From the NCBI GenBank assembly GCA_963681505.1, contig OY811981.1:620001-684000 (forward strand): a stretch of 64,000 nucleotides of DNA, written 5' to 3'. Below the pieces are notes generated by a model. That model was not told the origin of the DNA, ran no database searches, and saw nothing but the letters and a program-made list of their open reading frames with translations. Positions within the stretch are counted from its first letter, which is position 1; each line of letters opens with the position of its first letter. A program made the position numbers and the translations under genes. Origin of the DNA: Eunapius fragilis. Taxonomy: Eukaryota; Porifera; Demospongiae; Spongillida; Spongillidae. Positions 35,986-40,390 of the stretch are shown here, one piece after another.

Positions 35986-36087
35986 CACTACCAATTCCAC
36001 TACCACCACCACTACCAAGCCCACTACCAATCCCACTACCAATCCCACTACCAATCCCACTACCACTACCACTACCAATCCCACTTC

Positions 36088-36240
36088 CAATCCCACTACC
36101 ATTCACACAACCACTACAATTACCACTGTTAATCCCACTACCAATCCCACTACCACTCCCTCTACCAATCCCACTACCACTACCACTACTACTACCAATC
36201 CCACTACCACTACCACTACTAATCCCCCTACCAATCAGAG
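36088..36240. other. Unoccupied paralogue of the element's insertion site
   Basis: CATTCACACAACCACTACAATTACCACTGTTAATCCC and its continuation (CCACTCCCTCTACC, ACTACTACTACC, CCCCCTACCAATCAGAGTACC) match the left flank of the element (ending 37075) joined to the right flank (starting 40030). The single TA at 36121-36122 is present on both sides of the element, so this copy shows the pre-insertion state. Confidence 0.85.
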
Positions 36241-37073: not shown

Positions 37074-37075
37074 TA
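37074..37075. repeat. TA target-site duplication, left copy
   Basis: TA directly before the left TIR. The matching TA is at 40030-40031. The empty site at 36121-36122 has one TA. A 3-bp TAC reading is also possible if the element starts at ACGACC. Confidence 0.7.
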
Positions 37076-37088
37076 CACGACCAAAAGT
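37076..37088 (+). repeat. Left terminal inverted repeat
   Basis: CACGACCAAAAGT; pairs with 40017-40029 with two adjacent mismatches (GA versus AG). Confidence 0.8.
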
Positions 37089-37467
37089 TTAAAACCGTTC
37101 CAAACCTGTTACCTGATTTGAATCAGACTGTTATCAAATACTATAAAGGTTGGGAAAAATATCCGTTTCAGATCTGGTGGAGTAATTTCCGATTCTTACC
37201 TGTACTACCACGATAATGCAAAACTGGTAACAGCCTGAATCGTGGGTGGTACCAGCGCCAAGTCAAGTATTGTTCCGGTGATACACGGGGGGAATGCGTG
37301 GTTTTGTCTCGTGATCGCTAATGTTAAATAAACTGATGAATGATTAATACATTCCATAATCACACGCAATACAAATTTAAACAACAAAGCATATTCGTCC
37401 AGTCATGGGTATACACCAAAGCCTTCTCTCCTGATGCTTCTCTCTCTATCCTCCTAGAGCTGGACCC
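37089..37467. other. Left non-coding arm of the element
   Basis: No convincing exon. It contains one CAGACTG subterminal motif (37124-37130), the inverted-repeat block CAAACCTG, and the AACTGGTAACAG...GGTGGTACCAG stretch (about 37222-37255) that has inverted counterparts in the right arm. Confidence 0.6.
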
Positions 37468-38668
37468 TCAATCAAAAGTACAACTGTCACTGCATTCATG
37501 GACTATAGAAACGGCTTGCTTGATCTGGCTGCAGTCTGCTGAGAATATTCTTTTCGTTATGGCAAGTAGTGGGCACTCATACTCGTCCAGCACTGGTTCA
37601 CTATTCACAACAAAATCATCACATCCCTGAAGTACGCAGAATGATTCACCCGTTTCCAACTGACAGGAAGTCAAAAACAGGGCATTCTTTGTCTACAAAA
37701 GATAAACTACTTGAAGTTACTGAGGTGACAAAACATACTATTTTACCTCTGAACAGAGCAGTTCAACAAAGCCTCCAGCATGAACCAATCCACCATCTGC
37801 TGCAATAACCCCTTTGAACACTGCAACAAGGCTGTCCTCCATACAGTGGAAGAGTTCTATTCTAGTTGAGCTATCATGACGATGCAGATCCTCAATGGTA
37901 GCACAGGAAAGGCCAATAGTATTGAGAACAACATGTTTGCAATACGTGTAGGGATTTTGAAAGGCGCTATAGCATAGAATGTGCACATAAAAAAACACTG
38001 ACTAATTTAACTGCAACTCACTTTCCTCAGTGCTCCAGGCTGATATATGCTCCTGTCGCCATTGAGTTCTATCATCGTAACATTGTTGAAGAAATGTCAT
38101 AGGAGTTGAATAAAATGTCTTTAAGCCACCACCACACCTAAATCAACATCAATGATAAGCGTTCATTAAACTGAGTAACACTTACTGGATGTTATCATCT
38201 CCATCACAAGCACACGTATAACGTAGATGCTGCTGCACAGCAAAATGACCCTAGAGGGAGCAAGGCGATTACTAAAAATATTCTGTGCTCTAACAGTAGC
38301 ATTGAAGGATTCACACCTACAGAATGAGAAACATATTAATAACTACTTAGGAAAGAATAAAAGAAACGTACACACCTCTCTGCGGAAAATGCCGAACAAG
38401 GTCCCAAGTTAACCATACAATCCACTAGATGGAGTATTAGGTGGGCCTTCGGTTTATTCAGGCATTGTTTGTGTGCTTGACATTGATGACAAAGTTCTCA
38501 CAAATAGATTTCCACTCATGGTAGAGATGTGGAGAGAAATACCTGCAATATGCTATTCGAAGCACCTATAATAAAAAACATCATAAATCAATCATCATGG
38601 AGTTAAAATTTGTGCTTACCTTTGAAAAACTCAATAACACCTTTCTATCATCACTGCTCAAGTAAGGA
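37468..38668 (-). pseudogene. 5'-truncated, frameshifted multi-exon gene remnant (ESFN...NRLAPSR family)
   Basis: Seven exon-like segments on the - strand are joined by very short introns: 38668-38620, 38565-38502, 38424-38376, 38316-38186, 38137-38022, 37966-37747 and 37659-37468 (stop TGA at 37470-37468). Donors are GTAAGC, GTGAGA, GTGTGT, GTAAGT, GTGAGT and GTAAAA; introns are 54, 77, 59, 48, 55 and 87 bp. Phases agree across introns 1-4 and 6, which supports the model. Readable protein pieces include SSDDRKVLLSFSK, FSPHLYHEWKSI, LGPCSAFSAE, ESFNATVRAQNIF, NRLAPSR, QQHLRYTCACDGDD, AADGGLVHAGGFVELLC and PVLDEYECPLLAITK. Decay: a one-base frame change near 38245-38255, and a phase mismatch between exons 5 and 6. 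No start codon or N-terminus is found. From memory the ESFN...NRLAPSR segment recalls uncharacterised proteins abundant in basidiomycete genomes, with relatives in animals; this was not checked. Function unknown; it may be the element's own former gene. Confidence 0.72.
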
Positions 38669-39040
38669 CTTAAGATAAAAACAGACATTTGAGACCATCC
38701 TTTAAAGTCCCGTCCCACAAAGGAATATCTTGGTGGGGTTCATCAGGGAAGCAGAATAACATGAAGGAGTGTGGAAGAGAGGGAGGGATGTGTGAGAGGG
38801 AGTGTGAGTGGGAAAGGAGAGGGATGTGTGAGTGAGTAGGAAAGGGGAGGATGTGTGAGAGAAGAGTAAATTTGAGAGCAGGTGGAAGATGGGGTGTGGA
38901 TGAGTAGGTGAGACTGTCGAGGGTTGGTGGGAAGTTGAAGAAACAGCAGTGGATGGATGGTGGGAGAGGGAGGTGTGGGGTGTGGGAGGTAGCAAGAGTA
39001 AAGGTTAGAGATGGAGGGATACAGAGTTCATAAACCCTTA
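38669..39040. repeat. Purine-rich (GGGA/GTGT) minisatellite spacer
   Basis: From about 38752 to 39000 the + strand is imperfect GGGATGTGTGAGAGGGAGTG-like repeats; the - strand is pyrimidine-rich. It lies between the VPS35-like exon 2 donor (39041) and the first exon of the downstream gene remnant (38668), so it would sit in an intron on the - strand. The ~97-codon open frame through it on the - strand is low-complexity and not credible. A possible extra exon around 38700-38750 cannot be established. Confidence 0.7.
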
Positions 39041-39041
39041 C

Positions 39042-39259
39042 AGCTAAGCAAGGACGTTCTCAGCTCGTTCAGCATATTGGAGGCATACTGAAGCGCATCC
39101 ATCAGCTTATTGTTGTCCTGTAGCAGAAGACGTACTTTCAACACAAAAGAACATGACGACGCTCCTGAATCTCACCAAACATGTCTTCATCTCGAACGCA
39201 TTCTTCTTCACTTGGTTTAGAGCTTCCGTAAGAAGCTAATCCTGGTCGTCCATTGCCAT
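39042..39259 (-). pseudogene. VPS35-like 5' gene fragment (exons 1 and 2), stop at codon 8
   Basis: VPS35 is the large alpha-solenoid subunit of retromer, which recycles endosomal cargo. Two - strand exons are visible: 39259-39176 (ATG to ...FEMKTCL) and 39117-39042. They are separated by a 58-bp GT-AG intron (GTGAGA...CTGCTACAG) in phase 0; exon 2 ends at a GTAAGG donor (39041). The joined product reads MAMDDQD-stop-LLTEALNQVKKNAFEMKTCL, then NKLMDALQYASNMLNELRTS. Human VPS35, recalled from memory, reads [22 protein letters not shown] then [20 protein letters not shown] over the same stretch, so the match covers the N-terminus and the exon joint. Codon 8 (39238-39236) is TAG where VPS35 has Lys, a one-base change from AAG. 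Nothing of VPS35 beyond about residue 60 is present, and the following region is unrelated. This is a captured fragment, not a working gene; transcripts could still form. Confidence 0.8.
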
Positions 39260-39408
39260 GACGTTTTGTTGGCTGCAGATCTGATCATGCATCATAAAAC
39301 GTAACCTGAGCACACATTTCATAAGTGAACAGGGTTACCGTGAACAGTATTACCGTAAGCCAAAATACAGCTGCCAGTAGCTGAAACGCTAAAGGGGTTG
39401 GCAGACAC

Positions 39409-39499
39409 AGCGGCTCTCAAAACAAAACTGCCATTTTCCCTGTGCTAGTATCACGTGAGGGTGCACGGCTCAGTCGCCCAGGGCAACAGTGAAAACAAA
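39409..39499. promoter_or_regulatory. Compact, TATA-less, possibly bidirectional promoter
   Basis: TCACGTGA palindromic E-box at 39451-39458; RFX-type X-box GTCGCCCAGGGCAAC at 39473-39487, an imperfect palindrome. YY1-like AAAATGGC occurs in both orientations: GCCATTTT at 39430-39437 and AAAATGGC at 39497-39504. It lies between the - strand VPS35-like start (39259) and a + strand ATG exon (39500), an arrangement expected of a head-to-head promoter. Motif calls are by eye; activity is not shown. Confidence 0.55.
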
Positions 39500-39537
39500 A
39501 TGGCCGAAGGTGGCATGCCGGTCGTTTTCCCATTTAC
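39500..39537 (+). pseudogene. Isolated first coding exon (MAEGGMPVVFPF) ending at a GTAAGT donor
   Basis: AAAATGG gives a favourable start context. Twelve codons, MAEGGMPVVFPF, plus two bases are followed by the consensus donor GTAAGT at 39538. Without splicing the frame stops at once (ACG TAA). It lies just downstream of the promoter-like region and points away from the VPS35-like fragment. No acceptor or second exon is recognised before the right end of the element. I infer it is the first exon of the gene that was divergent to VPS35 in the source locus; the gene is not recognised. Confidence 0.45.
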
Positions 39538-39609
39538 GTAAGTGGGAACGGAAACCATTGTGCGGCGTCAAAAAACAGCACTCTTGCAATACTTCTACTG
39601 TATGTGTTG

Positions 39610-39720
39610 CATGTGTGTGTCTGTGTGGTGCGCGCGCGAATGCACATCTTCAGTGTGCTCTGGACATGTGTGTGTCTGTGTGGCGCGCGCGCGAACGCAC
39701 ATCTTACAGTGTGCTCTGGA
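39610..39720. repeat. Two-copy 55/56-bp tandem repeat with alternating CG/TG runs
   Basis: Copies at 39610-39664 and 39665-39720, each CATGTGTGTGTCTGTGTGG then a CGCGCGCGAA run, TGCACATCTT-like sequence and GTGCTCTGGA. The CGCGCGCG and TGTGTGTG stretches are alternating purine-pyrimidine tracts with Z-DNA potential. Open frames across it in three frames are repeat artefacts. Confidence 0.9.
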
Positions 39721-40016
39721 CAACTCTTGTCGAGGATTGATAATCGAGGTGAACTGATATCAAAATGTAGACCCACAGATACAAACCTTGCACAACGGCC
39801 AGTCCGAGCGAGATACTGAACCTTGACTGACACCAATGCTGGTTCGTATTGTATTTCAGGTTTGAAACGAACTGGTACCATGCGATATTCTCAGCCTGAA
39901 CCAGGGTTGTGATACCAGTTAACAACCAGACTGTTGATTTAAACACCCATGATTCAGACTGTATTTCATTCCCACACCAGACTGTATTTCACCACCAGGT
40001 TTGATTCAGACTGGTT
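39721..40016. repeat. Right arm of the element with subterminal CAGACTG repeats
   Basis: CAGACTG at 39927, 39955, 39978 and 40007 (spacings 28, 23 and 29 bp), within repeated contexts GATTCAGACTG and CAGACTGTATTTCA. One copy lies near the left end at 37124. Subterminal motif clusters are typical of transposase-binding ends. No coding segment is recognised here. Confidence 0.7.
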
Positions 40017-40029
40017 ACTTTTGGCTGTG
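40017..40029 (-). repeat. Right terminal inverted repeat
   Basis: ACTTTTGGCTGTG on the + strand; complement CACAGCCAAAAGT. Followed by TA (40030-40031) and then satellite. Confidence 0.8.
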
Positions 40030-40390
40030 TACCACTGTTAATCCCACTACCAATCCCACTACCACTCCCTCTACCAATCCCACTACCACTACCACTACTA
40101 CTACCAATCCCACTACCACTACCACTACTAATCCCCCTACCAATCAGAGTACCACTATAATTACCACTACCAATCCCACTACCAATCCACTACCAATCCC
40201 ACTACCACTACCACTACCACTACTAATCCCACTACCTCTACCACTACCCCTACCAATCCCATTACCAATTCCACTACCGCTACCACTACCAATCCCACTA
40301 CCACTACCAATCCCACTTCCACTACACTACCAATCCCACTACCAATCCCACTACCACTTCAATTACCACTACCAATCCCGCTACCAATCC
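40030..40390. repeat. 12-bp/6-bp satellite array, block J
   Basis: Right flank of the element, continuing the array interrupted at 37075. It matches 36121-36480 closely (CCACTCCCTCTACC, AATCCCCCTACCAATCAGAGTACC), then the CTTCAATTACC...CCCGCTACCAATCCCTTATGG lead-in to island 9. Confidence 0.93.

Follow-up and report, generated by a model that had tools for sequence, protein, structure and literature searches.

A Pack-type, CACTA/CMC-like transposon carrying the 5' end of VPS35 in a sponge genome

Pack-CACTA elements were reportedly described in plants by Catoni et al. in 2018, and the plant elements make target-site duplications of 3 bp. The transposon analysed here, from the sponge Eunapius fragilis, resembles them in being an element of CACTA type that shuffles a gene fragment, but it lives in an animal and is flanked by a 2-bp duplication, TA.

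In animals the process is already known. A survey of Pack-TIR elements in 100 genomes reports 370 cases, 323 of them hAT or TcMariner, with a median captured size of 224 bp and four multicopy cases, given as 1.4%; in its main text CACTA occurs in the reference list only (Tan et al. 2021, PMC8277862). A sequence-only reading of our DNA had called the capture of a host gene by a DNA transposon rarely described in animals, which is true of multicopy cases, with only four in that survey, and not of the process itself; the copy number found here is unusually high. As in the surveyed elements, a single element encloses a piece of a host gene between its terminal repeats, the parental gene being elsewhere and the introns kept, and as in the multicopy frog, alligator and fly Ssk-FB4 cases the copies are dispersed over distinct target sites (PMC8277862). 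Unlike the cases set out in that survey, however, this one has at least 15 copies (the frog example has three and Ssk-FB4 four), a captured piece of 0.87 kb (against the median of 224 bp), a CACTA/CMC-like vehicle and an identifiable relative without the gene piece.

Three further systems share parts of this picture. Turmoil-1 of C. elegans, an earlier case of transduplication, also has host protein-coding pieces on an animal DNA transposon, but in the account of it these lie in the inverted terminal repeats, whereas here an internal segment was replaced by a piece made of upstream region plus exons (PMC2572040). ENS1_Cis, a CACTA element of Ciona savignyi, and CMC elements related to it have the same 5'-CAC..GTG-3' termini and 2-bp duplications, yet gene capture is not described in the available text on them (PMC6004678). 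The ESTA elements of the CMCT clade, likened here by their description, have an EnSpm-like transposase and TA duplications, but they are fungal, and three families are described there as carrying TET/JBP genes (PMC12730594). Our search of the literature found no relevant report of VPS35 capture by a transposon, and none of a transposon-captured gene fragment in a sponge genome. What stands out in the present case is the copy number, the CACTA/CMC-like vehicle, a content of upstream region plus start codon, and the completeness of the record.

The captured VPS35 segment and its donor gene

The window, meaning the whole stretch of 64,000 nt that was analysed (C11:620001-684000), is made up mostly of satellite, and another stretch in it, 37076-40029, is the transposon. 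Its features are the following.

1-37073 and 40032-64000: satellite, a 12-bp CCACTACCAATC-type unit with blocks of a 62-bp unit (CGGGATCAATCTGTAACAATTCGGCG..) between
37074..37075, no strand: TA target-site duplication, left
37076..40029, no strand: whole transposon, 2954 bp, inserted in satellite, with ends CACGACCAAAAGT / ACTTTTGGCTGTG and TA on both sides
37076..37088, plus strand: left terminal inverted repeat CACGACCAAAAGT, 11 of its 13 bases equal to the right repeat
37076..38619, minus strand: remainder of the transposase 3' half, which is decayed, together with the element's left end, showing 94.9% identity to the relative on C2 over the left 1653 bases
38620..38724, minus strand: transposase-derived exon (SFVGRDFKGWSQMSVFILSPYL..), on the strand of the VPS35 piece, matching the C2 relative (L050:886-1257, minus) and ending in a GTAAGC donor that was read by eye
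38725..39598, minus strand: captured VPS35 5' segment, 874 bp, comprising the upstream region, the first two exons, each with the intron that follows it, and the first 4 nt of exon 3
38725..38728, minus strand: first 4 nt of VPS35 exon 3 (ATAT), then the junction to transposase DNA
38729..39022, minus strand: VPS35 intron 2, 3' splice site included
39023..39117, minus strand: VPS35 exon 2, with a 2-bp deletion that, in copies with no other damage to the frame, brings in a TGA after codon 57; GT donor after the exon
39118..39175, minus strand: VPS35 intron 1, GT..AG, phase 0
39176..39259, minus strand: VPS35 exon 1, reading MAMDDQD, a TAG at codon 8 (in the window copy only), then LLTEALNQVKKNAFEMKTCL
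39260..39598, minus strand: VPS35 upstream region, that is presumed promoter and 5' UTR, with TCACGTGA, AAAATGGC and GCCATTTT kept as in the gene
40017..40029, minus strand: right terminal inverted repeat CACAGCCAAAAGT (reverse strand)
40030..40031, no strand: TA target-site duplication, right

In the satellite parts built of the 12-bp unit, C far exceeds G on the plus strand.

The sequence-only reading had proposed two spliceable exons matching the VPS35 N-terminus across a phase-0 intron, within 39042..39259. Both exons were located, on either side of a GT..AG intron 1, and the homology proved real, reaching beyond that span to cover 38725-39598. The peptide predicted from the two spliced exons, in which X stands for the stop, aligns with VPS35 chains of solved structure (best E 6.3e-16, for residues 9-61 of a chain of 796 residues). 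The organism's own copy of VPS35, a cell-sorting gene, lies on C14 at about 875.2-879.3 kb, minus strand, and looks complete: its exons in turn match Pfam PF03635, together covering most of profile positions 21-711 out of 726 (best E 5.1e-74). The donor locus is unique, the rest of VPS35 too being matched at one locus, on C14. An intron had been expected between the CL and NKLMDAL codons, and the C14 gene has one, in phase 0, exactly between ..MKTCL and DNNKLMDAL... A chance match to VPS35 is ruled out by the genome match, the aligned gene copy and the structure match.

On the gene side the capture begins about 355 bp 5' of the ATG and takes in an exon 1 of 28 codons. The captured segment measures 874 bp where the gene has 901 bp, and 35 of the 847 bases aligned between them are substituted (4.1%); blastn of the element against the gene gives 88.7% over 922 columns, gaps included. 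The nine of 15 copies that were compared over the whole segment lie 3.4-4.3% from the gene; exons were compared in all 15. The segment falls within the bounds that define a Pack-TIR (an internal sequence of 100-5000 bp, at least 90% identical to a single parental locus and 80-120% of its length; PMC8277862). The same definition asks for a parental copy whose flanking 100 bp are free of transposons. As far as the element's own sequence goes, the transposon is absent at the VPS35 locus, since the match between the two is confined to the captured segment. Introns 1 and 2 are both retained, in line with a definition that excludes retrocopies, and since upstream DNA is retained with them, the segment is not a retrocopy.

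Dispersed copies with common junctions

Genome searches covered the 219-Mb assembly in 24 contigs, and the best candidates were scored, so that all copy numbers are lower bounds. Wnt is matched seven times in this assembly, on two contigs (best E 1.4e-39), as fits an animal genome. The VPS35 piece is present in at least 15 elements, the window copy included. Its 3' junction, CCAAGATAT joined to TCCTTTGTGGG, is identical in 13 of the 14 aligned copies and slightly rearranged in L025; the fifteenth copy, L011, which lies outside the 14-copy alignment, matches the window without a break across this junction. Common to all 15 are the 2-bp deletion in exon 2, Q instead of K at codon 38, a G-to-A substitution within intron 1 and a short 5' UTR insertion, of which two copies have variant forms. 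The remaining differences from the gene occur in some copies only, and the C13 copy, L039, is free of several. The TAG noted earlier at codon 8 is there, from AAG, and is private to the window copy, being found in none of the 14 others.

Both ends adjoin TA in nine loci (L011, L012, L020, L022, L023, L024, L025, L027 and L031), whose outer flanks differ, save for four places on C10 and a C2/C3 pair; in the VPS35-bearing L021, L026 and L028, a motif scan of those loci did not find the right end. An empty site exists in the satellite repeat next to the window copy, where window 36063-36182 equals the element flanks joined at one TA in 119 of 120 positions. The C3 copy sits in a dispersed repeat, and in 26 empty members of this repeat, counted by us from 40 rows scored per flank, the end of the left flank and the start of the right flank overlap by exactly 2 bp, which confirms the 2-bp target-site duplication.

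These observations bear on a rival account, in which a plain segmental duplication or a processed pseudogene of VPS35 was there first and a transposon landed beside it afterwards. The piece is indeed a partial VPS35 copy with lesions, as such an account would have it. A processed pseudogene, however, is contradicted by the introns and upstream DNA that are still there, and a segmental duplication by the single element context, with the same junctions in 15 places, mostly different flanks and TA duplications, and we regard the account in either form as extremely improbable.

In a tree of the left part of the element from 23 places, the 14 VPS35-bearing places and three left-only rows from C10 are grouped with support 100/95, and the six rows that have no VPS35 match fall outside this group; the C13 copy, most of whose left part is missing, was excluded. 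The junctions being common to at least 15 copies, a single capture was followed by transposition, and the alternative of several captures has no support, again because the junction is common. The sequence-only reading had also placed the gene 5' end within satellite heterochromatin. The window copy does lie in satellite, but the satellite 12-mer was found in none of the 14 other VPS35-bearing copies in the DNA examined around each, and the satellite setting is peculiar to the window copy.

We also considered a founder at C3, since the copy at C3:9.42M and the C2 relative share a position in the dispersed repeat, which suggested alleles before and after capture. This idea was dropped, both because the C3 copy is nested among young copies and not basal in the tree, and because its flank shares 99-100% identity with young empty repeats, the C2 flank only about 90%. 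The two insertions, L012 (C3:9422713/9426520, VPS35-bearing) and L034/L050 (C2:5185380/5192810, VPS35-less), are inserted at exactly the same point of that dispersed repeat, although the repeat copies are about 10% apart and the elements are not sisters, which suggests a target hot spot or gene conversion. A gap of 4.9 kb between flank matches on C12 proved to be another copy of the dispersed repeat and not an insertion of the element.

Some copies have local peculiarities. Four places on C10 (7819109, 7849169, 7892470 and 7923561; L037, L024, L036 and L035) have identical left flanks of 40 bp and apparently derive from one insertion by local segmental duplication; the VPS35 piece lies within the matched stretch only at 7849169. 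In L011, L012, L013/L032 and L033, extra insertions of about 0.85-4.5 kb lie at nearly the same spot in the captured upstream region (window about 39407-39505).

The vehicle and a proposed route of capture

The terminal repeats are 13 bp long and imperfect, with CAC..GTG, and so exceed at both ends the 10 bp that is the minimum for a Pack-TIR. Two traits of the CACTA/CMC type are present, 5'-CAC..GTG-3' termini and a short duplication, which at 2 bp (TA) lies within the 2-3 bp of that type. A candidate for the subterminal repeats of that type is the motif CAGACTG, picked by eye, which occurs at element positions 49, 2852, 2880, 2903 and 2932, with a reverse copy at 457. Just outside the captured segment, at window 39610-39722, lies a 55-bp tandem repeat in two copies, which other copies of the element match in more than one register, so that its copy number may vary.

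Gene capture by Helitrons is well known in animals and has reportedly been seen in platyfish, and a Helitron-type capture could in principle have put a VPS35 piece on a mobile element. Helitrons are defined, however, by having neither terminal inverted repeats nor a target-site duplication, whereas this element has terminal inverted repeats, a 2-bp TA duplication and empty sites, and its C2 relative encodes a weakly Transposase_21-like protein; we give a Helitron next to no credence.

This relative, at C2:5185379-5192797, has both element ends, and about 5.4 kb with transposase exons (..VPLILFSDDTSGNKSKKW.., ..DNPRASELVNHLGSSANRYCRVCEV.., ..NSFVGRDFKGWSQ..) where VPS35 would be. At its right end TTG intervenes before the TA, so the duplication there is not clean. 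Its match to Pfam Transposase_21 (PF02992), the tnp2 type of transposase that goes with CACTA/CMC elements, is weak (L050, E 9.5e-4, 18.9 bits, below the curated cut-off of 28.6), as is that of L058, a 70% identical locus at C2:6.06 Mb, to the same part of the profile (E 6.3e-4, 19.4 bits, below the same cut-off). Two D-containing stretches of the relative, judged by eye, would be motifs of the transposase. Further open frames (..EKVVKKVLGPEISQCKSKVNKAVSFCLRRLSDLRAEERRRVKYNVVHELW..) lie opposite the transposase on the plus strand at L050:5138-6131, within the stretch that VPS35 replaces. The relative's transposase exon has 150 scored matches in the genome, many of them broken or partial, and among the loci read there was no intact autonomous element with exactly these ends.

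The CAC..GTG ends, the 2-bp duplication and the transposase all point to CACTA/CMC, and we call the vehicle CACTA/CMC-like, its membership being unproven. CACTA elements have been described with CAC..GTG termini and 2-bp duplications (PMC6004678), and EnSpm-like elements with TA duplications (PMC12730594).

Capture by a DNA transposon, as first proposed, is directly supported by the VPS35 origin of the piece, with introns and upstream DNA kept, by junctions that are the same in 15 places, by the terminal repeats, TA duplications and empty sites, by dispersal from a single origin and by the VPS35-less relative. We hold with high confidence that the element belongs to the Pack-type (transduplicated) transposons, that it is non-autonomous and of the CACTA/CMC kind, and that it carries the VPS35 5' end after a single capture and subsequent dispersal.

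As to how this came about, repair or template switching within a parental element may in one event have removed about 5.4 kb, transposase front included, and put about 0.9 kb from the 5' end of the host's VPS35 gene in its place. Since the resulting Pack element is without the exons that bear the two D-containing motifs, it would need mobilisation in trans; having lost most of its transposase, it would have been moved by the transposase of related elements. It has reached at least 15 places, this satellite array among them. Transcription from a captured promoter might then yield a short VPS35 message, truncated and running on into the transposase remnant. Gene and relative overlap, as judged by eye, by about 2 bases (AT) at the 3' junction and about 1 at the 5' junction, which fits repair or template switching inside the element, a route that has also been proposed for animal Pack-TIRs (PMC8277862).

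Coding capacity and the captured upstream region

The 57-codon frame, with its GT and AG sites, is intact in 12 of the 15 copies. It is lost in the window copy, which stops after 7 codons, in L031 through a frameshift, and in L033, which is without the acceptor and part of exon 2. Against the majority sequence, the exons of the copies show 20 nonsynonymous codon changes, 1 stop and 4 synonymous changes, a small sample of 25 in which some common states are counted repeatedly, and changes per site per copy are 0.008-0.012 in the exons and 0.0115 in intron 1. Comparing exon and intron 1 rates over the 15 copies, small as the sample is, we saw no sign of selection on the captured exons, and as far as it tells the VPS35 fragment in present copies behaves as neutral cargo.

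The VPS35 piece and the transposase remnant lie on the same strand and in the same order. Exon 2 ends in phase 1 and, through the kept intron-2 acceptor, T+AT TCC TTT continues the transposase frame (SFVGRDFKGW), so a founder still free of the 2-bp deletion would have encoded VPS35 and transposase as one in-frame fusion. This deletion is present in all 15 copies, however; it therefore probably destroyed the fusion frame before the element multiplied, and the amplified element encodes at most 57 codons of the VPS35 N-terminus.

One could read more into this arrangement, namely a promoter-hijack chimera that acquired the promoter of a housekeeping gene together with its start codon and splice donors, whose founder was an in-frame VPS35-transposase fusion and which today yields a 57-residue peptide or a regulatory RNA affecting retromer or transposition. 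Such a reading agrees with the common strand and order, with the intron-2 acceptor kept along with 4 nt of exon 3, with exon 2 + AT + TCC reading into SFVGRDFKGW once the shared deletion is set aside, with the survival of TCACGTGA, AAAATGGC and GCCATTTT in the window copy, and with the 12 copies that retain frame and splice sites. Yet the deletion common to all copies, which probably broke the fusion frame before they multiplied, counts against it, as do exon changes that look neutral, the one-in-three chance of an in-frame join and the stop at codon 8 of the window copy, and we consider it unlikely. More doubtful still is the proposal that a working host promoter was captured with start codon and splice sites, that a founder fusion was possible, and that a dozen copies now transcribe a 57-residue peptide or a spliced chimeric RNA influencing retromer dosage, transposition or silencing; promoter activity of the captured upstream region is putative, judged from its sequence.

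One assembly contains the donor gene, the VPS35-less relative, the junctions, the empty sites and no fewer than 15 descendants; this is a clean animal case of gene capture by a TIR transposon, and the captured upstream region offers a natural test of the spread of host promoters by transposons.
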